From the IMG/VR virus record IMGVR_UViG_3300050821_006032, positions 1-37,237 of that record: a stretch of DNA of 37,237 nucleotides. One strand, written 5' to 3'. How positions within the stretch are numbered: position 1 is the stretch's first letter; each line of letters begins with the position of its first letter. Shown here piece after piece: positions 200-37,237 of this stretch. This DNA is from a virus. The position numbers were made by a program, and so were the translations under genes. The notes under the pieces are model-generated. The model made no database searches. It saw only the letters and a program-made list of their open reading frames with translations, and was not told the DNA's origin.

Positions 200-841
200 A
201 TGGCAGACCTGAAGATCAGCAAGGAAGCGGGCGAGACCGGCGGCACGGCGGAGACGGCGGGCCAGCTGGAGGACTTCCTCCGCAAGGACGGCCTGTACGC
301 TGACCCGCTGTCGGGGTCGCTGCTGGACGGCGGTCCGGCGGCGAACGGCTACCTGGCGTGGACCGGTGACCCGCAGCTGGCGACGACCGCGTTCCAGGGC
401 ACGAGCACCGATGTCTACGTCCGGCGGCTCTTCGCGCCGCGCAGCACGACGACGACGTACGCGGACATGTGGTGCACCACCCTGAACTCGGGCACGGTCA
501 CGCACGCCTACGCGGGCTTGTACGACATGCTGGGGAACCAGCTGGCGGCCAGCTCCGACATCGAGTCGGCGTTCACCGGGACCGGGGTCCAGACGTTCAC
601 CTGGACGACGCCCTACGCGCTAGTAGCCGGGAACTACTACTACGTCGCCTATGCGATCGCCGACACCACGGCGGCGCCGTCGATGCTGGCCACGCCGACC
701 GCGGCGGGCATCAACGCGAACCTGCCGACGCACGTCTACCGGTACGCGACCTACTCGACGTCGACGACGATCCCGTCGTCGATCACGATCGCGTCGATGT
801 CGGCGACGACGACGACCCCGGCGTGGATCGGCCTGCGCTGA
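200..841 (+). CDS. Putative virion decoration/fiber-type protein, 213 aa
   Basis: The ATG at 200 follows an AAAGGGGGG ribosome site. The protein is rich in Thr, Ser, Ala and aromatic residues and looks like an all-beta domain. Strand-like stretches such as VYVRRLF, AYAGLYDMLGNQLA and GNYYYVAYAIAD recall receptor-binding or beta-sandwich domains of actinophage structural proteins. The major capsid gene begins two bases after its stop, so the two are probably co-transcribed. A head-decoration or fiber role is inferred from position and composition. No catalytic motif is visible. Confidence 0.65.
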   Translation: MADLKISKEAGETGGTAETAGQLEDFLRKDGLYADPLSGSLLDGGPAANGYLAWTGDPQLATTAFQGTSTDVYVRRLFAPRSTTTTYADMWCTTLNSGTVTHAYAGLYDMLGNQLAASSDIESAFTGTGVQTFTWTTPYALVAGNYYYVAYAIADTTAAPSMLATPTAAGINANLPTHVYRYATYSTSTTIPSSITIASMSATTTTPAWIGLR

Positions 842-843
842 CC

Positions 844-2016
844 ATGACCGCCGAGCCGATCGAGGGGCAGCTGCTGAGGGCCGGGCCGTTCCCCGTCCCC
901 GGCGGCTGGCGCTCGGCCCTGTACCGGGACGACGCGCCCGGCGCGGTGCTGGACTCGCAGCCGTGGGCCCGGGACTGGCGGTCGTTCATGCGGGCCGTGA
1001 ATGACCCGAATGACGCCACGGCCCGGCGTTTCATCGGCAACGCGATGAGCGAGCGCCTGCCCGGCGAGGGCGGCTTCCTCGTCCCGGAGGGTCTGCGGAG
1101 CGAGGTGTTCGCCTACCTGGCCCCGGCGATCATCCGCCCGCGGTCGGGGGCCGTGTACCCGATGTCGACGCTGCGGCTCGGCGTGCCCGTCCTGGACAAC
1201 CTCTCGCAGGCCAGCGGCAAGCAGGCGCTGGGCGGCCTGACGTTCGCGGTCACGGAAGAGGGCGCGGGCATCACGCCGACGACCCCGGCACTCGGCCGCC
1301 TGGTCCTGGAGGCGCGCAAGATCGCGGCCTACCTGGAGTCGGTGCCTAACGAGTTCACCGATGACGCGGCGGGCGCGTTCAGCGACTTCCTGGCCCGCGT
1401 GATCGGCCTGGGCTACGCGTGGGAGGAAGACGACCTGTTCATCTCGGGGACGGGCATAGGCGAGCCGCAGGGGCTGACGAATGCCCCGTGCGCCGTGTCG
1501 GTGACCCGGGCGAACAGCGGCGACGCTCCGGTCGACGCGGACATCATCGCCATGTTCAAGGCGCTCGCGCCGCCGAGCAAGCAGCACGGCCTGACATCCG
1601 GTGTCACGGATGTGGCGTGGCTGGTGTCGTCGACCGTGATGGACGCGCTGCTGGAGCTGTATTACCTGCCTGCCGGGGCGTCCCCGACGTCGGGGACGCC
1701 GGTGTCGGTGCCGTCGTGGTTCAGCATGGGCGACGGCGACCGGATCGCGCCGAGCTTCATGGGGCTGCCCGCGTTCGTGACCGACCACCAGCCCGCCGCG
1801 GGGACGGCCGGGGATCTGATCCTCGCCGATCTGCGGCATTACGCGATCGGCGACCGGATGGCCCTGACGATCGAGCGCTCCCAGAAGGGCGCCGGGTTCG
1901 TCACCGGTACGAGCAACTGGCGAGTCAAGAGCCGCGTCGACGGGCGGTACCAGGTCCTGAGCTCCTACACCACCGGGGCGAATCAGGTAGTCAGCCCGGT
2001 CGTAGTCCTGCACTGA
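844..2016 (+). CDS. Phage major capsid protein, HK97 fold
   Basis: This 390-aa protein is the head shell subunit. It shows signatures of HK97-type capsid proteins (phage_capsid family): GEGGFLVPEGLRSEVF near residues 73-88, the start of the mature N-arm/E-loop region, then a P-domain-like helix, then GTGIGEPQGLTN near residue 202, then a C-terminal A-domain with RSQKGAGF and WRVKSRVDGRY. The first roughly 60 residues are probably a short scaffold-like delta region. The ATG at 844 is chosen because it follows the upstream stop by two bases and agrees with the family length. A protease is not seen and should lie upstream of the window. Confidence 0.93.
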   Translation: MTAEPIEGQLLRAGPFPVPGGWRSALYRDDAPGAVLDSQPWARDWRSFMRAVNDPNDATARRFIGNAMSERLPGEGGFLVPEGLRSEVFAYLAPAIIRPRSGAVYPMSTLRLGVPVLDNLSQASGKQALGGLTFAVTEEGAGITPTTPALGRLVLEARKIAAYLESVPNEFTDDAAGAFSDFLARVIGLGYAWEEDDLFISGTGIGEPQGLTNAPCAVSVTRANSGDAPVDADIIAMFKALAPPSKQHGLTSGVTDVAWLVSSTVMDALLELYYLPAGASPTSGTPVSVPSWFSMGDGDRIAPSFMGLPAFVTDHQPAAGTAGDLILADLRHYAIGDRMALTIERSQKGAGFVTGTSNWRVKSRVDGRYQVLSSYTTGANQVVSPVVVLH

Positions 2017-12717: not shown

Positions 12718-15700
12718 GTGACGCTCGCTCCCGTCCAGTACGCCTGGAACTCGGCCACGTCGGCTGGCAGTCTTACTGTCACGCTCGGCGGCGCCGATTC
12801 CGGCGGCACGTCTCCCGGCCCGACGACGGCCGGGAACACCCTGGCCGTCTGCGTCCAGGTGTTCGGCGGCGCCACCGTCAGCAGCGTCCATATCGGCGGC
12901 AGCGCGGATAACTTCGCCAAGGCTGCCGGGGTGGTCGACGACGCTAACTCGGACTGCGAGACCTGGATCGACGAGGGCTGCGCGGGCGCGCAGACGTCGG
13001 TGGTCATCACCTTGTCCGGCACGGCGGACGTGGTCCAGGCCTACGTCCTGGAATGGCCCGGGCTGCTCACCACCGGCCTGGTCGACAAGACGAACCACGG
13101 CACCACCAGCTTCGGTACCTCCTGGTCGTCGGGATCCACCGGCACGCTGAGCCAGGCGAGCGAGGTGGTCATCGGCGCCGTGGCTGCTACCCCGGCCAGC
13201 ACCACCACCCTGACGACGCCCGGGGGGTCGTGGACTGAGCTGCCCCAGCTGTCCGCCGCCGATTCAGGCGAGACCAGCTACCTTGGCGTCGGCTACCAGT
13301 CGGTGAACTCCACGTCGGCGCTGACCTACTCCGGGACCACCGCGGACAGTTCCCTCATCGCCGCGGTGATCGTCACGCTGAAGGCCGCGCCGCCGCCGTC
13401 CGCGCCGGGCAGGGCGCCCGCGCCGCCGTCGCCGTTCACGCCGATGAGCTTGCCGCGATACTGGCAGCCGCCGCCGCCCGGGCCGGTGATCTCGTTCTCC
13501 GGCGTCATATCGGCTGCCGCGGCCGCGGTCGCAGGTGACCAGTCACCGCCCGTCCTGTCCGGCTCGCCGTCGGCCGCCCCGGCCGCGGTCGCAGGTGAGT
13601 TCAGCGTTTTCAATTTCTTCCCGGATTCACCGCTCGGCACGAAGGTCGAGCTGCTGATCAACGGCACCTGGACCGACATAACGTCGCCCTGGGTGCTGTA
13701 CGAGCAGGGCATCAAGATCACCCGCGGCCGCCCGGACGAGACGCAGTCGGTCACCGCGGCGCAGTGCACGCTGCGGGTCCGGAACGACGACGGGCGGTTC
13801 AGCCCGTCGAACACGGCCGGGGCGTACGCGCCGTACCTGGGCCGGAACACGCAGATCCGCGTGTCGGTCGACGCCTGGGTCGATGCGTCCGGCACGCCGG
13901 TCAACTACGACGGCTTCCGGTTCTGGGGCGAGTGCGCCTCGCTCAAGCCTGGCTGGGATCAGTCCGGCAACTTCCGGTATGTCGACATCACGGCGGCCGG
14001 GCCGATCCGCCGGTACAGCCAGGGCAACGCCACCATCGGGTCGGCCTTGCGCAGGTACTACACGCGGCTGACGGGCAGCCTGGTGCCGTACGGCTACTGG
14101 CCGGACGAGGACGTCCAGGGTGCCAGCGAGTTCGCGTCGTACGTCGCCGGGGTGCCCGCGATGGGCTTCACCGGCTCGCCGCAGCTCGCCTCGGATTCCT
14201 CGTTCGGCGGTTCGGACGCGATCCCGGCCGTCAACTCGAGTTCGTGGCACGGGCAGACCGGGGCGGCGTCGGACCCGCCCGGCGCGGGCTCCATCGTCCA
14301 GTTCACGCCCGGTACCTATAACTGGAGGTGCCCGCCGGGCGTCACCGCGGTCACCGGCGTCGACACCATCGGCGGAGGCGGCGGCGGGGGCGCGGCGGGC
14401 CCGCACGCGGGCGGCGGCGGCGGTGGTGGTGCCGGCCAGTCGCTGGCCAGCTCGATCGCGGTCACGGCCGGGACGACATACCAGTACGTGGTCGCTGAGG
14501 GCGGCCAGGCCGGCGCGTCGCTCGGTGCGGGCGGCGGCCCGGGCGGTACGTCGTCCTGGACCGGCGACACGCAGGCGTGCACGGCGGGAGGCGGCCAGGG
14601 CGGTGAGGGCGGCGACACGTCAACGGGCGGCGACGGCGGGACGGGCACGTACGCGGGCGGCGAGGGGGGCACCGGCCAGGAGTCGGTCACCACGTCGGGG
14701 AGCCTGTACTTCACCGCGAACACGGGCGGCACCGGTGGCGCCAGCGGAGGGACGGCCGGGCAGGTCAGCTTCGGGTGGCAGTCCCCGGCCGGGGTGGAGG
14801 AGATCCAGGCGGCCGTCGGCGGTGGCGGCGGCGGCGGCGGGGGCGGCGGCCAGGACTCCAACGGCACCGGCGGGGCGGGCGGCGGCGGCGGGGGCCTCAA
14901 CACTGAGACGGTCCAGGTCACGCCCCTGACCCAGTACAACTTCCTCGCGGGTAACGGGGGGAACGGGGGTAACTCCGCGGCTGACGGGCAGGCCGGCGGT
15001 GACTCGGTGATCACCGGCACCGACAACGGCATGGGCGGCTTCACCTCGATCACCGGCGGCGGCGGGAGCGGCGGCGGGAGTTCTGCCGGTTCAGGCGGGG
15101 CCGGCTCGGTGCCCGGGTCTTCTGGCGGCGGGTCGGTCAAGTCCGAGCCTGGCGAGGGCATGGGCGGCGGCGGTGGCGGTGGCGGCGGCGGTGGTGAGAA
15201 CGGCACCGGCGGGACCGCGGGTGCCACGAATGACCCGCAGCCCCCGGGCGCCGGCGGCGGGAACGGGGCGACTGGCGGGTGGGGCGCGCAGTCCAATGGC
15301 GGGTCCGGCGCGACGAACGGCGCCACGGGGTCTGGCGGCGAGATCCTGGACGCAGGCGGCGGCGGCGGTGGTGGCGGCGGGGCGGTTACTAACACCTCGG
15401 GCAATGTCGGCGGTGGCGGAGGCGCGGGCTGGTGCTACTGGTCCTGGAGCGTGACCGGGCCCACTGGCGGCGGGGGTGGCGGCTCTGGCGGGATGAGCGG
15501 ACCCGGTAACGCGGGCAGTAACGACGGGACCGGCGGCCTGCCTGGCGGTGGCGGCGGCGGAGCTGGCGGTAACCAGGGTGCCCCGAGCGGGATCAACGGG
15601 CCCGGGGCGGGCGGCGGGGGCGGGGGCGGGATCCCGGCCAGCGCGACCACGACGGCGGCGGCCGCGGCTAACGGCGGCGCGGGCGTCGTGTCGTTCGCCT

Positions 15701-16932
15701 GGTCCGGGGGCGCCATCTCGCCCGTCGCCGCGGATATCGTCCGCTTTTTGCTGGAGATAGACTCGGCGGGCGGCACCGACGGGGCGATCCTCGCGCGGAT
15801 CATCACCTACGGCACCGTCGAGCGGATGGACCTGCTCTACCACACCGCCGACGGGGGTTCCCTCGAGCTGATCGGCTACAACTCCGGCGGCACGCAGCTG
15901 TTCGACTCCGGGACGGTGCTGGCCGGCCTGAACGGCACCCCCGTCATGATCGACATCGAGCTGACCGCGAACGGCTCCGGCGGGGCCAGCTGGTCGCTGG
16001 CCGCGATCGAGCCCGCCGCCAGCTCAGCGCTCGGCACCTTCACCGGCACCGTCAGCAGCGTGACCGTCTCCAACGTGTCCGACGTCTACATCAGCCCGGA
16101 CTCCGACATCAGCTTCGCGTCGGCCGGGCACATCGCGGTGCAGACCTACGCCGACCCGCTGACCACCCTGGCGCAGGTGATGGCCGGGTACGCGGGCGAG
16201 CTGGCCGAGACGCGGCTGGCCCGGCTGTGCGCCGAGGAAGGGCTGAACTTCACCCTGGTGGGGCCGTCCGGGGTGACGCCGCAGATGCAGGCGCAGCAGG
16301 ACGACACGTTCCCCAACGTCATCCAGAGCTGCGAGGACGCCGACAGGGGGCTGCTATTCGAGGACCGCAACAGCTTCGGCCTGGTCTACGCGAGCCGGGT
16401 CAGCATGCAGGGGCAGACGCCCGCGCTGACGCTCGACTACTCACTCGGCCAGGTGGCGTTCCCGATGCAACCCGACACTGACGACCAGTACACCCGCAAC
16501 GACATCGCGCTGACGAGGAACAACGGGTCGAGCGCGACCGCCGTCCAGCAGACGGGCCCCATGTCGGTCCAGGCGCCGCCGAACGGCGTGGGCGACTACC
16601 TGTACACCCTCACCTGCTACGTCTACGAGGATTCGCAGCTGGCGAACATGGTGGCGTGGATGCTGATCGTCGGCACCGTCGCCGACGAACGCTTCCCGGT
16701 CATCAGCATCAACATGGCGCGGCCGGAGATCGTGGCGCTGTTCGCCACGGCAGCCGGGATCGACATGAGCGACTACCTGCAGATCGTCAACCCGCCGTCG
16801 TGGCTGACATCGCTGCCCATCCAGCAGCTCGCGTGGGGGACGGACGAGACGATCTCCAACCTCACCTGGCGCCTGGACTTCAACGCGGTCCCGGAGTCGC
16901 CGTACAGCACAGGGAACCCGCCGACATGGTGA
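12718..16932 (+). CDS. Giant minor tail protein with internal glycine-rich insertion, 1404 aa
   Basis: The GTG start at 12718 is the only sensible one. Domains in order: residues 1-225, a beta-sandwich of surface-protein type; 226-298, a Pro/Ala linker with PVISFSGV; 301-528, the conserved minor tail core (LLINGTWTDITSPW, TLRVRNDDGRFSPSN, RRYYTRLTGSLVPYGYWPDE); 529-999, very glycine-rich modules with short Thr/Tyr-containing strands; 1000-1404, the rest of the tail core (LARLCAEEGLNFTLVG, GLLFEDRNSFGLVY, MVAWMLIVGT). It probably forms the tail tip and displays the glycine-rich part for host binding. The two halves of the core are split by the insertion. Confidence 0.8.
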   Translation: MTLAPVQYAWNSATSAGSLTVTLGGADSGGTSPGPTTAGNTLAVCVQVFGGATVSSVHIGGSADNFAKAAGVVDDANSDCETWIDEGCAGAQTSVVITLSGTADVVQAYVLEWPGLLTTGLVDKTNHGTTSFGTSWSSGSTGTLSQASEVVIGAVAATPASTTTLTTPGGSWTELPQLSAADSGETSYLGVGYQSVNSTSALTYSGTTADSSLIAAVIVTLKAAPPPSAPGRAPAPPSPFTPMSLPRYWQPPPPGPVISFSGVISAAAAAVAGDQSPPVLSGSPSAAPAAVAGEFSVFNFFPDSPLGTKVELLINGTWTDITSPWVLYEQGIKITRGRPDETQSVTAAQCTLRVRNDDGRFSPSNTAGAYAPYLGRNTQIRVSVDAWVDASGTPVNYDGFRFWGECASLKPGWDQSGNFRYVDITAAGPIRRYSQGNATIGSALRRYYTRLTGSLVPYGYWPDEDVQGASEFASYVAGVPAMGFTGSPQLASDSSFGGSDAIPAVNSSSWHGQTGAASDPPGAGSIVQFTPGTYNWRCPPGVTAVTGVDTIGGGGGGGAAGPHAGGGGGGGAGQSLASSIAVTAGTTYQYVVAEGGQAGASLGAGGGPGGTSSWTGDTQACTAGGGQGGEGGDTSTGGDGGTGTYAGGEGGTGQESVTTSGSLYFTANTGGTGGASGGTAGQVSFGWQSPAGVEEIQAAVGGGGGGGGGGGQDSNGTGGAGGGGGGLNTETVQVTPLTQYNFLAGNGGNGGNSAADGQAGGDSVITGTDNGMGGFTSITGGGGSGGGSSAGSGGAGSVPGSSGGGSVKSEPGEGMGGGGGGGGGGGENGTGGTAGATNDPQPPGAGGGNGATGGWGAQSNGGSGATNGATGSGGEILDAGGGGGGGGGAVTNTSGNVGGGGGAGWCYWSWSVTGPTGGGGGGSGGMSGPGNAGSNDGTGGLPGGGGGGAGGNQGAPSGINGPGAGGGGGGGIPASATTTAAAAANGGAGVVSFAWSGGAISPVAADIVRFLLEIDSAGGTDGAILARIITYGTVERMDLLYHTADGGSLELIGYNSGGTQLFDSGTVLAGLNGTPVMIDIELTANGSGGASWSLAAIEPAASSALGTFTGTVSSVTVSNVSDVYISPDSDISFASAGHIAVQTYADPLTTLAQVMAGYAGELAETRLARLCAEEGLNFTLVGPSGVTPQMQAQQDDTFPNVIQSCEDADRGLLFEDRNSFGLVYASRVSMQGQTPALTLDYSLGQVAFPMQPDTDDQYTRNDIALTRNNGSSATAVQQTGPMSVQAPPNGVGDYLYTLTCYVYEDSQLANMVAWMLIVGTVADERFPVISINMARPEIVALFATAAGIDMSDYLQIVNPPSWLTSLPIQQLAWGTDETISNLTWRLDFNAVPESPYSTGNPPTW
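14302..15711 (+). repeat. Glycine-rich coding repeats, G-biased on the plus strand
   Basis: About 470 codons are dominated by GGC/GGN, with poly-glycine runs at 14376-14436, 14815-14850, 15165-15196 and 15354-15384. At least two units begin with similar signatures: an entry of the form PGVTAVTGVDTIGGGG or PAGVEEIQAAVGGGG, then T(T/Q)YQYVVAEGG or TQYNFLAGNGG. These resemble phage glycine-rich adhesin domains with polyglycine II helices, as known from Salmonella phage S16 gp38. The plus strand is strongly G-rich and has quadruplex potential. Confidence 0.75.
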
Positions 16933-21879: not shown

Positions 21880-22125
21880 TCAGGCGGTCTGCCGGACGCC
21901 GCGCGTCTGCCGCTTGATGTAGTCGGCCAGGTCGTCGCTGCGGACGCGTGTCTTCGACTTCCGCGACCCGGGGGCAGCGATGTCGACGGCGCGGAGCGCT
22001 CCGGCTGCGATCAGCCGGTACACGTGCATCCCGGACACGTCACCCAGCAGCTCGGCAGTCTGGGGGATCGTGTAGAGCCTGAGCTCCGGATGTCCTGGAT
22101 CGGGACGCGTAACGGCGTTCTGCAT
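21880..22125 (-). CDS. Excisionase-like / MerR-type helix-turn-helix protein, 81 aa
   Basis: The protein has a winged-helix pattern of the HTH_17/excisionase type: LRLYTIPQTAELLGDVSGMH, VYRLIAAGALRAVDI, a basic wing (RKSKTRVRSDDLADYIKR) and a short tail. It would bind DNA and could act as recombination directionality factor for the integrase at 22638. It is transcribed away from the XRE-integrase operon across a 77-bp control region. The ATG at 22125 is preferred; a GTG at 22131 is possible. Confidence 0.7.
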   Translation of the reverse strand: MQNAVTRPDPGHPELRLYTIPQTAELLGDVSGMHVYRLIAAGALRAVDIAAPGSRKSKTRVRSDDLADYIKRQTRGVRQTA

Positions 22126-22151
22126 GAGCACAGGGAATCACATGATGCCAC

Positions 22152-22202: not shown

Positions 22203-22634
22203 ATGTCACAGGACACCACACAGGCCCACCCGGCCTATCAGGGGCTACCGGCTGACCTGACAGACCAGATCTTCGCCCGGCGTCTGCGGGTCATCCGCCA
22301 GGCCGCCGGGATGACACAGCAGCAGCTCGCCGAGCTGACAGGGATGCACCGCAGCGCGATCGCGAAGATCGAGGCCGGCGGCCGGGTCGTCTCGGTCGGC
22401 GAGGCCGTCCAGCTCGCCGCCGCGCTCGGCACCACCGTGGCCGAGCTAGCGGCCGATCCCGCCGACGGCGCTGACCGGGCCCGCGTCGAGGCGCAGGTGC
22501 GGCTCCGCAGCGCCGAACACGAGGCCGCGCGCCGGCACGAGCTGATGGAAGAGGCGCGGCTCCTTTATATGCACGCGCTCGAGGCGGCCGAGGACGCGCG
22601 GCAGCAGCTGGCCGCGCTAGACGGGGAGGACTGA
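22203..22634 (+). CDS. XRE-family helix-turn-helix regulator, 143 aa
   Basis: The ATG at 22203 has a GGAGGA ribosome site. Residues 24-85 form an XRE domain: FARRLRVIRQAAGMTQQQLA, ELTGMHRSAIAKIEAGGR and VGEAVQLAAALGTTVAEL. The C-terminal 55 residues form a long charged helix, likely for dimerisation. Only three bases separate it from the integrase gene, so it probably controls its own operon and perhaps the divergent xis-like gene. Confidence 0.8.
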   Translation: MSQDTTQAHPAYQGLPADLTDQIFARRLRVIRQAAGMTQQQLAELTGMHRSAIAKIEAGGRVVSVGEAVQLAAALGTTVAELAADPADGADRARVEAQVRLRSAEHEAARRHELMEEARLLYMHALEAAEDARQQLAALDGED

Positions 22635-22637
22635 CCG

Positions 22638-23744
22638 ATGGCCTACATCCGGAAGCTGCCCTCGGGTAAGTGGCAGGCCGAAGTCCGGGGCCCGGACGGC
22701 CGCAAGCACACGTTCAGCGACAAGCTGAAGTCCGTCGCCAAGGCATGGGCGGCCGAGGAGGAGGGGCGGTTCGCCAGCGGCGACAGACGCGACCCGCGCG
22801 CCGGCGAGATCCGGGTCGGTACCTGGTATGCCCGGTACGCGGCCGCGTCTGGCGTCCAGGCCATCACCGCCACCAAGAACCGGTCGCTGTGGACCGTGCA
22901 CTGCGAGCCGAAGTGGGCGCGCTGGCGCATGTCGGCGATCACCCGGATGGAAGCGCAAGGGTGGGTCGGCGAGCTGCGGCAGACCCGGCTCGCCCGGTAC
23001 CGCGGCCGCGACGTCCAGGACGGCGACGACGCGCCGGTGCTCTCGGCCGCCACGATCGCCGACGTCGTGCACATCATGTCGGCGCTGTTCCGCGCCGCGG
23101 TGAAAGAACAGCCGCCGCTCGTGCTGGCCAACCCGTTCGCCGACCTCGCCCTGCCGGTGATCGAGCCGCGTCCCGTCGAGTTCTACGAGCGCGACGAGGC
23201 CGCGGCACTGTACGAAGCCGCCGCGGAATGGCGCACGCTGATCGAGCTCGGCATGGACGTCGGCCTGCGCCCGGGCGAGCTGTACGGGCTGCACGGCCAC
23301 CGCGTCGACTGGCTGCGCGGCCAGCTGGCCGTGGTCGACGTGATGACCCGCCAGGGCCTGCGGCAGTGGCCGAAATCCAAGCGGTCCCACCGGGTCGTGC
23401 CGGTGCCGCCCGCGACGCTCGAGGCCATGTCGGCGCTGATGGCCGGGCGTCCCCGGGATTCCCTGGTGTTCACCGCGCCGGAGGGCGGCCCCGTGACCGA
23501 CGGGCACTTCCGCAACCGGATCTGGTACCCGGCGATCGCCGAGGCCGGCGTCCGCCGGTGGCCGCCGCGGATCATGCGCCACACCGCCGCCTCGTGGCTG
23601 GTGCAGGACGGCGTGCCGCTGTACGACGTCCAGGCACTGCTCGGCCACGAGGACTATGCCACCACCCAGCGGTACGCCCACCTCGCCCCGAACGCCCACA
23701 ATAAGGTGATCGAGTCGTGGACCCGTAGGGCAGCCACATCATGA
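22638..23744 (+). CDS. int: Tyrosine site-specific integrase, 368 aa
   Basis: It catalyses integration between attP and the host attB. Domains: residues 1-50, an arm-binding beta-sheet domain (MAYIRKLPSGKWQAEVRGPD); 55-175, a SAM-like core-binding domain; 180-368, the catalytic domain. Catalytic residues visible: Arg211 (GLRPGE), Lys246/248 region, Arg314, His337 (LLGHEDY) and nucleophile Tyr346 (TTQRYAHL). The HxxR box reads RIMRH, so the usual first His is Arg311. The gene lies about 0.67 kb from the att core at 24410, as expected. It overlaps the next gene by four bases. Confidence 0.92.
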   Translation: MAYIRKLPSGKWQAEVRGPDGRKHTFSDKLKSVAKAWAAEEEGRFASGDRRDPRAGEIRVGTWYARYAAASGVQAITATKNRSLWTVHCEPKWARWRMSAITRMEAQGWVGELRQTRLARYRGRDVQDGDDAPVLSAATIADVVHIMSALFRAAVKEQPPLVLANPFADLALPVIEPRPVEFYERDEAAALYEAAAEWRTLIELGMDVGLRPGELYGLHGHRVDWLRGQLAVVDVMTRQGLRQWPKSKRSHRVVPVPPATLEAMSALMAGRPRDSLVFTAPEGGPVTDGHFRNRIWYPAIAEAGVRRWPPRIMRHTAASWLVQDGVPLYDVQALLGHEDYATTQRYAHLAPNAHNKVIESWTRRAATS

Positions 23745-24316
23745 CGGTACTATCGGCCCGCGAAGCGGAAGACAAGCGGTTCGGCCTCTTCGTCCGCGGG
23801 CTGCGCGAGGGCCGCGGCTGGAGCCAGGATCACGTGGCCGCCGCGATGCAGGATCTCGGGTTCGGCTGGGTGCAGACCACGGTATCCAAGACCGAAGCCG
23901 GGCAGCGTTCCGCGACGCTGATCGAGGCAGGCGCGCTGGCGCGGATCTTCGGCGTCGCCCTCGAATCATTCTTTCCAGAATCAGGAGCAGATGAGATGAG
24001 CGGACCGGACATCCAGTACTTCGACCACGACGGGACCTGGGTAAGGCCCGAGCGGGCCGCCGCGGCGGATGTCCTTGTCGTAGGCGGCGGCGGCGGTGGC
24101 TCGCTCGGCGCTGATGGCCAGCCCGGCGAGGCTACGGTGAAGCGGTTCACTGCACCAGACATCCCGGCCACCGTGGACATCCAGATCGGCAAGGGCGGCC
24201 GGGGAACTGACGGCGGCCAAGATGGCCGGGACGGCTGCGCAGTGGTCGTGACGTACCTGGAGGGCGAAGACAGCACCGCCCCGGACTGGGTTGAGCTTCT
24301 ACGGGCTCGCGGATGA
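23741..24316 (+). CDS. XRE HTH protein fused to a glycine-rich phage domain, 191 aa
   Basis: The ATG at 23741 overlaps the integrase stop (ATGA), implying translational coupling. Residues 10-80 form an XRE-type DNA-binding domain (FGLFVRGLREGRGWSQDHVA, TTVSKTEAGQRS, IEAGALARIFGVALESFF). Residues 105-175 form a glycine-rich segment (DVLVVGGGGGGSLGADGQPG, DIQIGKGGRGTDGGQDGRDG, AVVVTYLEG) of the kind usually found in phage tail adhesins. The combination is unusual. It may be a regulator whose C-terminal domain mediates oligomerisation. It is the last gene before attP. Confidence 0.75.
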   Translation: MTVLSAREAEDKRFGLFVRGLREGRGWSQDHVAAAMQDLGFGWVQTTVSKTEAGQRSATLIEAGALARIFGVALESFFPESGADEMSGPDIQYFDHDGTWVRPERAAAADVLVVGGGGGGSLGADGQPGEATVKRFTAPDIPATVDIQIGKGGRGTDGGQDGRDGCAVVVTYLEGEDSTAPDWVELLRARG

Positions 24317-24333
24317 GCCGATTTTCAGGCTCC

Positions 24334-24353
24334 TGCCGCACGTGTGCCGCACG
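24334..24353 (+). other. Left pair of putative integrase arm-type sites
   Basis: Two exact copies of TGCCGCACG at 24334-24342 and 24345-24353 are spaced 11 bp start to start, one helical turn. The same pair, with the same spacing, recurs at 24552-24571 on the other side of the att core. Paired repeats flanking a core are typical arm sites of tyrosine integrases. Confidence 0.7.
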
Positions 24354-24362
24354 GACGGAAAG

Positions 24363-24397
24363 AAGGCCAGCTCCCCGGACAGGGAAGCTGGCCTTTT
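24363..24397 (+). terminator. Rho-independent terminator after the integrase operon
   Basis: A perfect 10-bp inverted repeat, AAGGCCAGCT (24363-24372) and AGCTGGCCTT (24386-24395), encloses a loop with extra CCC/GGG pairing and runs into TTTT at 24394-24397. It lies about 46 bases after the stop of the XRE/Gly-rich gene. Read from the other strand it could also serve the tRNA-like sequence. Confidence 0.75.
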
Positions 24398-24409
24398 GCC
24401 TGGTCAGAC

Positions 24410-24492
24410 TGGTCGGGGTGGCCGGATTTGAACCGGCGGCCTCTTCGTCCCGAACGAAGGAAGAGGCGCAGGCAGGAACCCGCGCCACCCCG
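24410..24492 (-). tRNA. tRNA-Pro(CGG)-like sequence; its 3' half is the attP core
   Basis: On the minus strand the 3' half is canonical: anticodon stem CTTCG/CGAAG (24455-24459 and 24443-24447) around loop TTCGGGA (anticodon CGG), T arm GCCGG-TTCAAAT-CCGGC (24421-24437), acceptor CACCCCG, discriminator A and CCA (24410-24412). The 5' half is abnormal: CGGGGTG (24486-24492) can pair with the acceptor, but 26 bases instead of about 20 lie between it and the anticodon stem, and a normal U8-A9 and D arm are not seen. This is best read as a captured tRNA 3' end used for integration, perhaps not a working tRNA. Confidence 0.55.
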
Positions 24493-24551
24493 GCGACCTG
24501 CTAATAAACTCCACATGGCATAACATCACGCCCCAGGAAATCACGCGCTCT

Positions 24552-24571
24552 TGCCGCACGTCTGCCGCACG
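24552..24571 (+). other. Right pair of putative integrase arm-type sites
   Basis: TGCCGCACG occurs at 24552-24560 and 24563-24571 with the same 11-bp phase and orientation as the left pair. The pair lies in the gap between the tRNA-like sequence and the 3' end of the gene at 24575-25249, that is, on the side of the transfer-type module. Confidence 0.7.
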
Positions 24572-24574
24572 GGC

Positions 24575-26472: not shown

Positions 26473-26910
26473 CTATCCGCTGCTGTGATTCCGGGGGCAC
26501 GCGGCCACGCCTGCATCGAACCCGGCATCGAACCCGGCCGCTTCCCCCTGGTGCCATCCGGTCCTGTACGCCACGCACTGAGGGCGCTTGCACTGGTCGT
26601 CGCGGCACGACTCGAACGGGTGCTGCTCGGCCTGCCGCTTCTTGCGGGCCTTGGCGCGCTCGGCGGCCTTGGCCTTCTTGGCTGCCCGGGACTTGCTGGC
26701 CTTGAAGTCCGACTTCGGCTTGCAGACGTGCGTGAGCGGGTTGCCGAGCGGCTTGTTGCACGTCTCGCACTTGCCGAACGTGACCTGCGGTTTGAGCGTG
26801 GCGCGGCGCCCCGCCGCCCGGCCGCTGCTGACTACGCAGTCGTGCCTGATGCCCGTCCGCGGCTTGCCGCACCGGCCGCAAGTGACGACCAGTCGCGGCC
26901 TGTTCCGCAA
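26473..26910 (-). CDS. Multi-zinc-ribbon, Lys-rich protein, 145 aa
   Basis: The start is a TTG at 26910 preceded by GAGAGGGAGCGACG. Two ribbons are clear: CGRCGKPRTGIRHDC and CETCNKPLGNPLTHVC. A Lys/Ala-rich helix (KSRAAKKAKAAERAKARKKR) follows, then a third cluster, CRDDQCKRPQCVAY, and FDAGFDAG near the end. The basic helix and zinc sites suggest nucleic acid binding. It heads the small operon 3' of the translocase, beyond the repeat cluster at 27012-27085. Confidence 0.6.
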   Translation of the reverse strand: MRNRPRLVVTCGRCGKPRTGIRHDCVVSSGRAAGRRATLKPQVTFGKCETCNKPLGNPLTHVCKPKSDFKASKSRAAKKAKAAERAKARKKRQAEQHPFESCRDDQCKRPQCVAYRTGWHQGEAAGFDAGFDAGVAACPRNHSSG

Positions 26911-27091: not shown

Positions 27092-29155
27092 CTAGACATC
27101 CGGATTCCCCAGCAGCGGGATGATGGCGGCCCGCTCGAACCCGGCCAGCGGCGCCCCGCCAGGCTCGCGGACCCGCTTGGGCGCCGCGCCGAGGTTGGCC
27201 AGCTGGCTCCGCACAGCCTCGGGCGTAATGTCCGCGTAGGCACCCGGGATCGACTCGGCGAGCCGCGCGGCGATCGTGGTCAGGTACAGCTTCGGGTCGT
27301 CGCGGAACACGGTCAGCACGTCCTCGGCGATCGACCGCACCTCGACGTCGGCGTCCTCGCCGAGCGCGTACCCGGTCAGCCGCCCGGCGGCCTGCCGCAT
27401 CGTGCGGGCCCGGGCGGCGATCACCTTGGACTGAGGCAGGTCAAACCCGTACCCGCGCATGATGACCGGGCTGAGTCCCTCGCCCGCGAAGTAGAACACG
27501 CCCCTGTCCTCGCGGGCGAACATCGTGGCCCTGATCCCGTTCTTGTACATCGACGTGCCCAGGACCATGTCGTTCTCGACCTGGCCCATCACCTTCAGGC
27601 ACATCCGCAGCACGGCGTTCGCGCTGATGCCCGTGGGTATCGAGTTGGCGTCCGGCCGCTGGGTGGCGAGCATCAGCATGATCCCGAGCGCCGGCCCGCG
27701 CTTGGTGAGGTCGGTCGCGATGGCGATCAGTTCCTTGCCGTACTCCGGGTGCTCGAACGGGATCTGGCACTCGTCCCACGCGATAGCGATCGGGTGCAGG
27801 CCGAGGCGCGGGTCATTGGCCAGCTCGGGCGTGACCTTGTTCTGAGGGCACCGGGTCTCGTCCATGTTGCGGATCACCTTCGTGCGGCGGCGCATCTCGG
27901 TTCGCATGGCGCGCATGTCGGCGACCAGGTACTCGATGTCTTCCGGGTCGTCGCCGGCCCGGTAGCGGTGCGCCACCTGGGCTACCGGCTTGAGGTCGCC
28001 GGTTCCCTTGAAGTCGTAGGCGTGTATCTCTACCCGCAGGTCAAGAGCGCAGATCAGCAGCAGCAGCCGCAGCAGGAACGTCTTGCCCATCCTTGGGATG
28101 CTGCCGATGATGATGCTCGCGAACATGAGCGTGACCGTGACGGCCCGGCCGCGCGGGTCAGTGCCGAACACCACCGGCGCGAACACGTCGGTGGTGCCAC
28201 GCCGCAGCAGCGGCCATGAGGGCTGCTCGGCGGTCGTCATGTCCTCGTCGCCGACGAACAGGGCAAGCGCGCCGGGATGGCGCTTGTGGATCGTCTCGGG
28301 CCACACCGTGCCGAGCTGGCGCCGCAGGCCGCTGGCGAGGTTTTCGCGCCGTTCGGACACCTCCCCGGCCGTCACGCCGTGCGGCAGGTCGAGCCGGGCG
28401 AGCCAGCCGGGCCCGTCGCGCTGGATCGGGTCGATGAGCACGATGGCGTTCGCCCGGTCCTTGGCGAGCGCCTGGTTGATGCCGGCCAGGCGCAGCCCTT
28501 CCAGGGCGCGCACGACCACCTCGAACGTCAGCGTCTCGTACGCCACCGGCACGGTGGCCGAGGTGAGGATCGGCTTGTCATCGGGATGGCCGAACCATGC
28601 CAGCAGCGGCAGCACCACGGCGGCGATAGGCAGCCATCCCAGCGGGGCGTACGCGGTCACGGTGCCGGCCAGCACCAGCAGCGCGGCCAGCTCGGCGGCG
28701 AGCACCCCGCCGCGGAACGCGCGCCGCTTAACCGCGTGCTTGTGCAGCGACTCCCACGTGCGGGGGTCGTTGTTCGCCACCGCCTGCAGCCGCAGGTAGG
28801 TCTGTTCCGTGCACCACCACCAGTTGACCTGCAGCCAGCCGATCTTGAGCACGCCGAGCCCGGCCCACCTGAGCGTGTTCCAGCCGCGGGCAGGCAGCCG
28901 GACGAGGTGGTAGAGGAAGTGATGCCGGCCGCGCTTGAGGTGCCAGCCGTAATGCTTCCTGGCGGCGGCCAGCGTCTGCATGTGCGCGGGCAGGATCGGG
29001 CGCAGCTCGGCGGCCTCGCCGAACTTAGCCTTGCGCGGCGCGGGAAGCTGGGCGGCGCCCGGGAACGGGACGACCGTCCCCTCGATCGCGTCGTCGGGTA
29101 CGGGCGCGGTCTCGTCGCCACCGGCATCTACCGGCCACGGCCTGTCATCGGCCAT
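27092..29155 (-). CDS. FtsK/SpoIIIE-type DNA translocase, AICE transfer-protein-like, 687 aa
   Basis: A hexameric ATP-driven dsDNA pump is expected. Residues 1-140 are a cytoplasmic N terminus with the KRGRHHFLYHLVRLPARGWN region. Residues about 148-190 hold two membrane helices. The FtsK motor has Walker A GSIPRMGKT at 351-359, Walker B IAWDECQ with Asp461/Glu462, and ATQRPDANSIPTGI near 497-510. Residues about 605-675 look like a winged helix (LTTIAARLAESIPGAYADIT, EAVRSQLANLG), the place of the DNA-recognition gamma domain. It matches FtsK proteins of actinomycete integrative elements, where one such protein transfers dsDNA between mycelia. The ATG at 29155 follows GAGGTG; a GTG at 29164 is possible. 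Confidence 0.88.
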   Translation of the reverse strand: MADDRPWPVDAGGDETAPVPDDAIEGTVVPFPGAAQLPAPRKAKFGEAAELRPILPAHMQTLAAARKHYGWHLKRGRHHFLYHLVRLPARGWNTLRWAGLGVLKIGWLQVNWWWCTEQTYLRLQAVANNDPRTWESLHKHAVKRRAFRGGVLAAELAALLVLAGTVTAYAPLGWLPIAAVVLPLLAWFGHPDDKPILTSATVPVAYETLTFEVVVRALEGLRLAGINQALAKDRANAIVLIDPIQRDGPGWLARLDLPHGVTAGEVSERRENLASGLRRQLGTVWPETIHKRHPGALALFVGDEDMTTAEQPSWPLLRRGTTDVFAPVVFGTDPRGRAVTVTLMFASIIIGSIPRMGKTFLLRLLLLICALDLRVEIHAYDFKGTGDLKPVAQVAHRYRAGDDPEDIEYLVADMRAMRTEMRRRTKVIRNMDETRCPQNKVTPELANDPRLGLHPIAIAWDECQIPFEHPEYGKELIAIATDLTKRGPALGIMLMLATQRPDANSIPTGISANAVLRMCLKVMGQVENDMVLGTSMYKNGIRATMFAREDRGVFYFAGEGLSPVIMRGYGFDLPQSKVIAARARTMRQAAGRLTGYALGEDADVEVRSIAEDVLTVFRDDPKLYLTTIAARLAESIPGAYADITPEAVRSQLANLGAAPKRVREPGGAPLAGFERAAIIPLLGNPDV

Positions 29156-29164
29156 GATGGACAC

Positions 29165-36885: not shown

Positions 36886-37237
36886 ACGTCCCGGCCCGCT
36901 ACGCGGGCACCCTGACCGCCGCCGACCTCGACCTCATCCGCACCGCCCGCGACGAGTGGATGACCACCGCGCTGGCCCTCCACCAGCCCGACCGGGACGC
37001 GGCCGCCGCCGCCGTCCGGCACGTCTACGACGTCCACGGCCTGGCCGCGCCGCTCCTGACGATCTGGATGGACTCACCCCTCGGCTGCATCTACGCCGCC
37101 GCCGTCATCAGCCAGCTCAGGGGCCAGCTCGGGGGCCAGCTCGGGGACCAGCTCAGGGACCAGCTCTGGGGCCAGCTCTGGGGCCAGCTCTGGGGCCAGC
37201 TCGGGGACCAGCTCTGGGGCCAGCTCTGGGGCCAGCT
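36882..37237 (+). CDS. Repeat protein with QLxx tetrapeptides, N-terminal part (partial)
   Basis: The ATG at 36882 overlaps the previous stop, and the frame is still open at the window edge (118 codons). Residues 1-77 are helical: YAGTLTAADLDLIRTARDEW, HQPDRDAAAAAVRHVYDVHG, then PLLTIWMDSPLGCIYAAAVI. From residue 78 it becomes a regular tetrapeptide repeat QL(R/G/W)(G/D). I recall such QLWG/QLRD repeats at the start of actinobacterial DUF6745-type proteins, but the diagnostic part lies beyond the window. Confidence 0.6.
   Translation, partial: MNVPARYAGTLTAADLDLIRTARDEWMTTALALHQPDRDAAAAAVRHVYDVHGLAAPLLTIWMDSPLGCIYAAAVISQLRGQLGGQLGDQLRDQLWGQLWGQLWGQLGDQLWGQLWGQ
37113..37237 (+). repeat. 12-bp tandem repeat, at least ten units
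   Basis: Units of CAGCTC-(A/G/T)GG-G(G/A)C run from 37113 to the window end. The third codon is AGG, GGG or TGG and the fourth GGC or GAC, giving QLRG, QLGG, QLGD, QLRD, QLWG (three times), QLGD and QLWG (twice). The unit is a multiple of three, so copy-number change would keep the frame. The array continues past the edge. Confidence 0.9.

Follow-up and report, generated by a model that had tools for sequence, protein, structure and literature searches.

Anatomy of the locus

The window, which is the entire 37,237-nt stretch of the IMG/VR record analysed here, carries a tRNA-Pro(CGG) 3' half enclosed by two pairs of short direct repeats, 0.6 kb from a gene for a tyrosine recombinase (see table). 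The 9-mer TGCCGCACG is present in exact plus-strand copies at 24334, 24345, 24552 and 24563 with an 11-bp phase within each pair, and the preliminary description had placed all four copies around the core exactly. Each pair lies within a wider 26-nt direct repeat, the two copies of which are identical at 24 of 26 positions (92%) and offset by 218 bp. The full pair pattern TGCCGCACGTNTGCCGCACG was found at only two sites when both strands of the record were scanned, namely at the two arm pairs, and it is absent from the record in reverse orientation. Repeated sites of this kind flank the core on both sides and occur at no other place; the concern that such pairs might be abundant throughout the element has not materialized, with zero further pairs in the window.

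Table. Features of the putative attachment site and its recombination genes.
Feature	Position	Strand	Description
Candidate excisionase / recombination directionality factor	21880..22131	-	83 aa, HTH_17; PF12728 9.3e-9
int, 368-aa tyrosine recombinase	22638..23744	+	Pfam PF00589 2.1e-21; phrog_1 integrase 1.1e-54 (residues 3-363)
Putative arm pair, integrase side (P')	24329..24354	+	sites 24334-24342 and 24345-24353, 11 bp apart; repeat analysis, relatives
Hairpin	24363..24395	-	inverted repeat with 93% pairing between its 14-bp arms; a T-rich stretch comes next in the tRNA sense
Putative attP core	24409..24459	-	tRNA-Pro(CGG) 3' half, anticodon stem to 3' end: CTTCG TTCGGGA CGAAG ... CACCCCGACCAG
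P side adjoining core	24460..24504	-	imperfect inverted repeat of tRNA 3' half; pseudo-acceptor CGGGGTG, CCTCTTC/GAAGAGG
Putative arm pair, far side (P)	24547..24572	+	sites 24552-24560 and 24563-24571, 11 bp apart; repeat analysis

As a control we used 200 dinucleotide shuffles, all near-complete (98% or more of the window length), and a 9-mer with at least two pairs at 10-13 bp spacing appeared just once among all of them. As a single word, TGCCGCACG occurs 8 times exactly, against 1.6 expected and a shuffle maximum of 4, and the remaining four copies are unpaired and on the minus strand (21765, 28378, 29879 and 34918). When one mismatch was allowed, the word was not enriched in the window (36 versus 37.6 expected), and the signal therefore lies in pairing and position, not in the word itself. 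The arms had been called symmetric. This is true for the number of sites but not for their orientation or their distance from the core, since all four sites point in the same direction and the gap between pair and core is 55-58 bp towards the integrase but 92 bp on the opposite side, so that there is no mirror arrangement. Read in the tRNA sense, the far pair starts 111 bp upstream of the core. A search of viral_contigs with the exact arm-pair pattern returned two contigs sharing one sequence, which were judged unrelated because no tRNA half adjoins the pattern there.

On the minus strand the core reads, from 24459 to 24409, CTTCG TTCGGGA CGAAG AGGCC GCCGG TTCAAAT CCGGC CACCCCG ACCAG. ARAGORN detected no tRNA in the window, and the lone DNA match in the phage database covers merely 50 nt, the tRNA part of the site. 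Rfam matches to BcKCsr2 and U6atac within the site scored under the gathering thresholds and were rejected. The hairpin may be a terminator that the element supplies to a rebuilt tRNA gene, and in most relatives one or more hairpins are likewise located between the tRNA 3' end and the arm pair.

The integrase carries the catalytic residues R211, K246, R314, H337 and Y346, invariant in an alignment of 13 members; the box-II His position is occupied by Arg, as in several relatives. Solved structures that match the protein are mostly tyrosine recombinases of the Int/Xer type. Its N-terminal ~60 residues gave no match to a Pfam arm-binding domain and are well conserved among relatives; they are presumed to be arm-binding. 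The HTH_17 protein encoded upstream of int matches two profiles annotated as excisionase (phrog_66, 2.7e-4; phrog_1300, 2.4e-3), and homologues with 49-53% identity are found near related integrases at five loci (L095, L097, L099, L100 and L005). It is likely the excision factor. An ORF of 0.6 kb separates int from the site in the window, whereas the relatives have no such ORF. This ORF (23741-24316) combines an HTH_31 domain with a glycine-rich domain resembling that of the tail protein 12718-16932. Since an internal ATG at 23996, preceded by AGGAG, is in frame, its sequence suggests two former genes that now share one frame.

Together with the core, the flank 24460-24504 folds with an energy below that of all 500 controls in which the flank alone was shuffled. 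No comparable mirror flank was seen in the three relatives tested, and the flank also resembles a tRNA 5' half, with 3 of 2000 shuffles scoring as well. That the flank evolved as a mirror of the tRNA half, such that the attP centre and, after integration, attR could form a long tRNA-like hairpin, appears improbable to us; the flank may be a relic, a chance result or functional. If true, the mirror would be peculiar to this element, and the tRNA-like hairpin might affect recombination, e.g. via folded single strands, or disguise the displaced half. A search for phased repeats on the far side yielded just GCGTGAT twice, 15 bp apart. The window thus lacks a series resembling the GTGTCGG/CCGACAC repeats of relatives, and we therefore claim no excisionase site. 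Five related loci (L128, L129, L126, L118 and L005) contain three to four phased repeats of the CCGACAC or CTGAGAC type, spaced by about 10-11 bp, in the interval between far pair and core, which from their sequence might be excisionase sites.

Host tRNA genes and related integration sites

A 39-base core pattern was found exactly in 19 genome stretches, mainly from Streptosporangiaceae and other actinobacterial MAGs, and ARAGORN predicted an intact tRNA-Pro(CGG) gene in each of them. The core is therewith the 3' half of tRNA-Pro(CGG) on the minus strand, as had been proposed. Identity with the site extends over 48-51 bp in the 18 actinobacterial stretches, as in a lambda-type attP with a core identical to the host attB; the 19th match, a MAG assigned to 'Cloacimonadota', is identical over only 41 bp. 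In all 19 cases the identity ends at 24459, the 5' edge of the anticodon stem, and the block reaches from there to the tRNA 3' end, as expected for the anticodon subsite (class A of Islander). The preliminary description had given the identity block as 24410-24459 and suggested a search for matching host genes; the search found them and the right end stood, but the left end had to be corrected to 24409, giving 51 bp at most. In most genomes checked the tRNA 3' half is single-copy, so that an inserting element must rebuild the gene. Past the tRNA-Pro(CGG) gene of L035, L040 and L045 we noticed a different pair, GTACAGC at 13-bp spacing; since other sequences at this position carry such a pair, the gene looks from sequence like a hot spot for unrelated integrases.

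With the integrase protein as the sole query, viral_contigs and genome_contigs yielded zero relatives. A search by genome family recovered integrase relatives at E <= 1e-30 in 21 of 341 genomes of the host family, and those that share the anatomy have integrases 36-63% identical to that of the window. Among the relatives examined, eight adjoin a recognisable tRNA gene, which is tRNA-Val(CAC), tRNA-Ala(CGC) or tRNA-Ile(GAT). All eight carry a pair of the GTGCG(T/C) type at exact 11-bp spacing, starting 28-60 nt beyond the tRNA end, while 407 kb of other fetched DNA, both strands counted, contains one match to this pair type. In the tRNA sense the pair reads CGTGCGGCACACGTGCGGCA in the window and CGTGCGTCACACGTGCGTCA in the relative L093; the arm word of the window differs by one base from that of most relatives (GTGCGGC versus GTGCGTC).

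Second pairs were located by a genome-wide pattern scan that was blind to position. In three genomes (G183, G181 and G190) the second pair lies 112, 112 and 111 bp, respectively, upstream of the second of two tRNA-Val 3' halves, which is 62-87 kb away from the first. The distance between far pair and core is 111 bp in G165 and PhiNon1 as well as in the window. Two tRNA-Ile elements (G332 and G121) have one pair per junction at distances other than 111-112 bp. In these six cases (G183, G181, G190, G165, G332 and G121) attL and attR each carry one side of attP, and in PhiNon1/G165 the geometry is exact. The integrated copies that the preliminary description had called for were thus found for relatives, with one arm pair per junction; an integrated copy of the window element itself was not found. 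The closest approach is the MAG JOPF054 (L037, G014), in which tRNA-Pro(CGG) is followed by a GC-rich stretch, the pair TGCGTCACTGA TGCGTCAC and an inward-reading integrase C-terminus that is 84% identical to that of the window over 57 residues, where the contig ends; the far junction of this element was not recovered. Similarly, in L065 (G022) the tRNA-Pro half is present once more, and an integrase fragment with 77% identity follows this second copy. Neither is a copy of the window element.

Among named relatives, PhiNon1 of Nonomuraea gerenzanensis (plasmid III, 59,257 bp) is the closest, and it provides a natural set of all four att sites. D'Argenio et al. detected its circular and integrated forms by PCR, described an attB of 50 bp at the tRNA-Val(CAC) 3' end, with the tRNA intact after integration, and reported that the element also replicates as a circle (PMC5431353). 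Its circular record contains two arm pairs 220 bp apart with the tRNA-Val 3' half between them, and the chromosome record of the same strain contains the empty tRNA-Val(CAC) gene, i.e. attB. G165 harbours the integrated element, with 99.7-100% identity over the compared stretches; as PhiNon1 and G165 are one element, they were counted once. The 60-bp flanks swap exactly: attL consists of the attB upstream and the attP downstream flank, and attR of the attP upstream and the attB downstream flank. The identity block of 50 bp has its start in the anticodon stem, at the position where that of the window starts too, and in the empty attB neither of the 60-bp flanks of the core contains an arm pair. 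PhiNon1 and the window share a homologous integrase (about 50%), the pair offset (220 and 218 bp), the 111 bp between far pair and core, the hairpin and a tRNA 3' half as core. PhiNon1 differs in its target tRNA, its arm words (GTGCGTT/GTGCGTG versus GTGCGGC), an integrase that directly adjoins the arms and a far side with three GTGTCGG repeats, which the window lacks. As an aside, the annotation of NZ_LT559120.1 (L005 20001-21281) splits the PhiNon1 integrase into three fragments, while the near-identical copy in G165 is open.

The same arrangement would arise where two prophages sit in tandem in one tRNA gene, and the site could then be their junction instead of part of a free circle. Such a junction is identical to attP, so that sequence alone does not separate the two, and tandem islands in tRNA genes are on record (PMC4383910). 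Nothing in the window requires a second prophage, however, and in PhiNon1 an attP built to this plan occurs on a free circle. We therefore regard a tandem junction as very unlikely.

One element on both sides of the site

The preliminary description had proposed that both flanks belong to one element, which makes the site an attP and not a chromosome junction. Besides the arm pair on each side, the genome context bears this out. A further IMG/VR record, G001, has the first 9.7 kb of the window in common with it (99.97% identity), runs 15.3 kb further to the left and includes a ParB-like gene; in the literature, stable replication outside the chromosome besides the prophage state, the mark of a PhiNon1-like plasmid-phage, is shown only for PhiNon1. 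Record G003 (52,761 bp), both ends of which lie inside one gene and face each other, encodes relatives of the virion genes (capsid 54%) together with relatives of the right-flank FtsK-like gene (60%) and of 26473-26910 (47%). Since right-flank genes accompany virion genes there, the right flank is part of the element and not conserved host chromosome, the outcome that would have spoken for a junction. The integrase of G003 is a different one at another place than in the window, and the integration module is therefore exchangeable. Another combination of this kind is found in pPaSha2, a circular plasmid of Pseudonocardia alni with capsid, portal and terminase genes and a 42% identical FtsK-like gene. 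Tandem capsid-like genes that are 31% identical to each other (G001 13493-15013 and window 469-2016) are neighbours, and the same is seen in L008, L009 and G003.

The gene 27092-29164 is an FtsK/TraB-like gene of the actinomycete plasmid/AICE type inside a tailed-phage genome. Its product matches PF01580 at only 0.0017 and phrog_1358 at 7e-21, is akin to FtsK-like proteins of actinomycete plasmids and has counterparts in 121 of 341 host-family genomes. It is this gene from which the label 'transfer genes' for the right half derives, and a role in conjugal transfer may be suggested by its sequence. An AICE, i.e. a non-viral element mobilised by TraB/FtsK, was considered and rejected, because the window carries capsid, tape-measure and endolysin genes; the likeness to AICEs and plasmids is confined to the FtsK-like gene. 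The record of the window has no end repeats, and its right end shares no 20-mer with the left end of G001, so that a closed genome was not obtained. Tandem 12-bp repeats (GGGGCCAGCTCT and variants) occupy the last stretch of the record (37100-37237); they lie in an open frame and are the likely reason for the assembly break.

A single prophage with host DNA on one side would also place a tRNA half at its attL or attR, and a record without end repeats would fit such a junction. Yet in prophages of this group each junction has one arm pair, not two, the empty attB of PhiNon1 has none near its core, the window holds no intact tRNA, and the right-flank genes have their relatives beside virion genes on G003. 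Hence, there is very little chance that the site is a single-prophage junction. It is common for operators and origins to have direct repeats beside regulator genes, and those described here might be replication origin iterons or operators of the HTH genes 22203-22634 and 23741-24316, with the tRNA half as a passenger. Although replication of PhiNon1 as a circle (PMC5431353) would suit iterons, equivalent pairs occur at similar or fixed core distances beside integrases that target several different tRNAs, and also at loci without a detected homologue of these HTH genes, which makes this explanation highly implausible.

Proposed recombination and relation to known attachment sites

The anatomy, the host match, the attL/attR geometry in relatives and the exact flank exchange in one relative were observed directly. 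We conclude with high confidence that a temperate phage of Streptosporangiaceae has its complete attP at 24329-24572, and that this site recombines with the 3' half of tRNA-Pro(CGG) in the host via the integrase encoded at 22638-23744. The one-base difference in the arm word and the ORF between int and the site weigh against this reading. From the lambda and L5 paradigm we infer arm binding by Int, the exact crossover and what the excision factor and the hairpin do. The N-terminal domain of Int would bind the arm pairs, with two protomers side by side on each pair, one helical turn apart, while the core-binding and catalytic domains would act on the anticodon-stem inverted repeat of the core. 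The core would then recombine with the identical host 3' half, with the crossover at or near the anticodon loop. Upon integration, the 5' half from the host would be continued by the 3' half from the phage and the phage-borne hairpin, so that the tRNA would stay whole. The hairpin could serve as terminator once the tRNA gene is rebuilt, and the host 3' half that was displaced would come to lie next to the far arm pair, at the opposite junction. Excision is predicted to be promoted by the HTH_17 protein 21880-22131.

The anatomy of the site belongs to an already known class, since it matches the plan of CrimD, L5 and Giles and a recognised anticodon subsite; the site of this phage is an additional example. 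The attP of the Cluster K1 mycobacteriophage CrimD has two pairs of 11-bp repeats around the core and a stem-loop terminator between the core and one pair (PMC3203893). The window shares both traits, but in CrimD the core is a tmRNA 3' end, the pairs are mutually inverted and attP lies 5' of int (PMC3203893). Compared by description, the putative arm-type sites of L5 and Giles are paired in direct orientation as in the window, while L5 has several additional arm sites (PMC3203893). An anticodon-centred attP is a recognised tRNA subsite (subsite A of Islander, PMC4383910). Islands at subsite A resemble the window in that the element supplies the 3' half and the block starts in the anticodon stem, and differ only in the particular target.

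Reading the site as attP fixes the likely host family and the likely target gene of a soil phage that has not been cultured. It also supports the view that the virion genes and the FtsK-containing half are one genome. Across the relatives the spacing of the arm module is kept, and largely also its distance from the core, while the core itself is swapped among tRNA-Pro, tRNA-Val, tRNA-Ala and tRNA-Ile. The relatives are therefore a natural series for the study of target change by tyrosine integrases, and their int-attP pairs could be used for vector building in Streptosporangiales.
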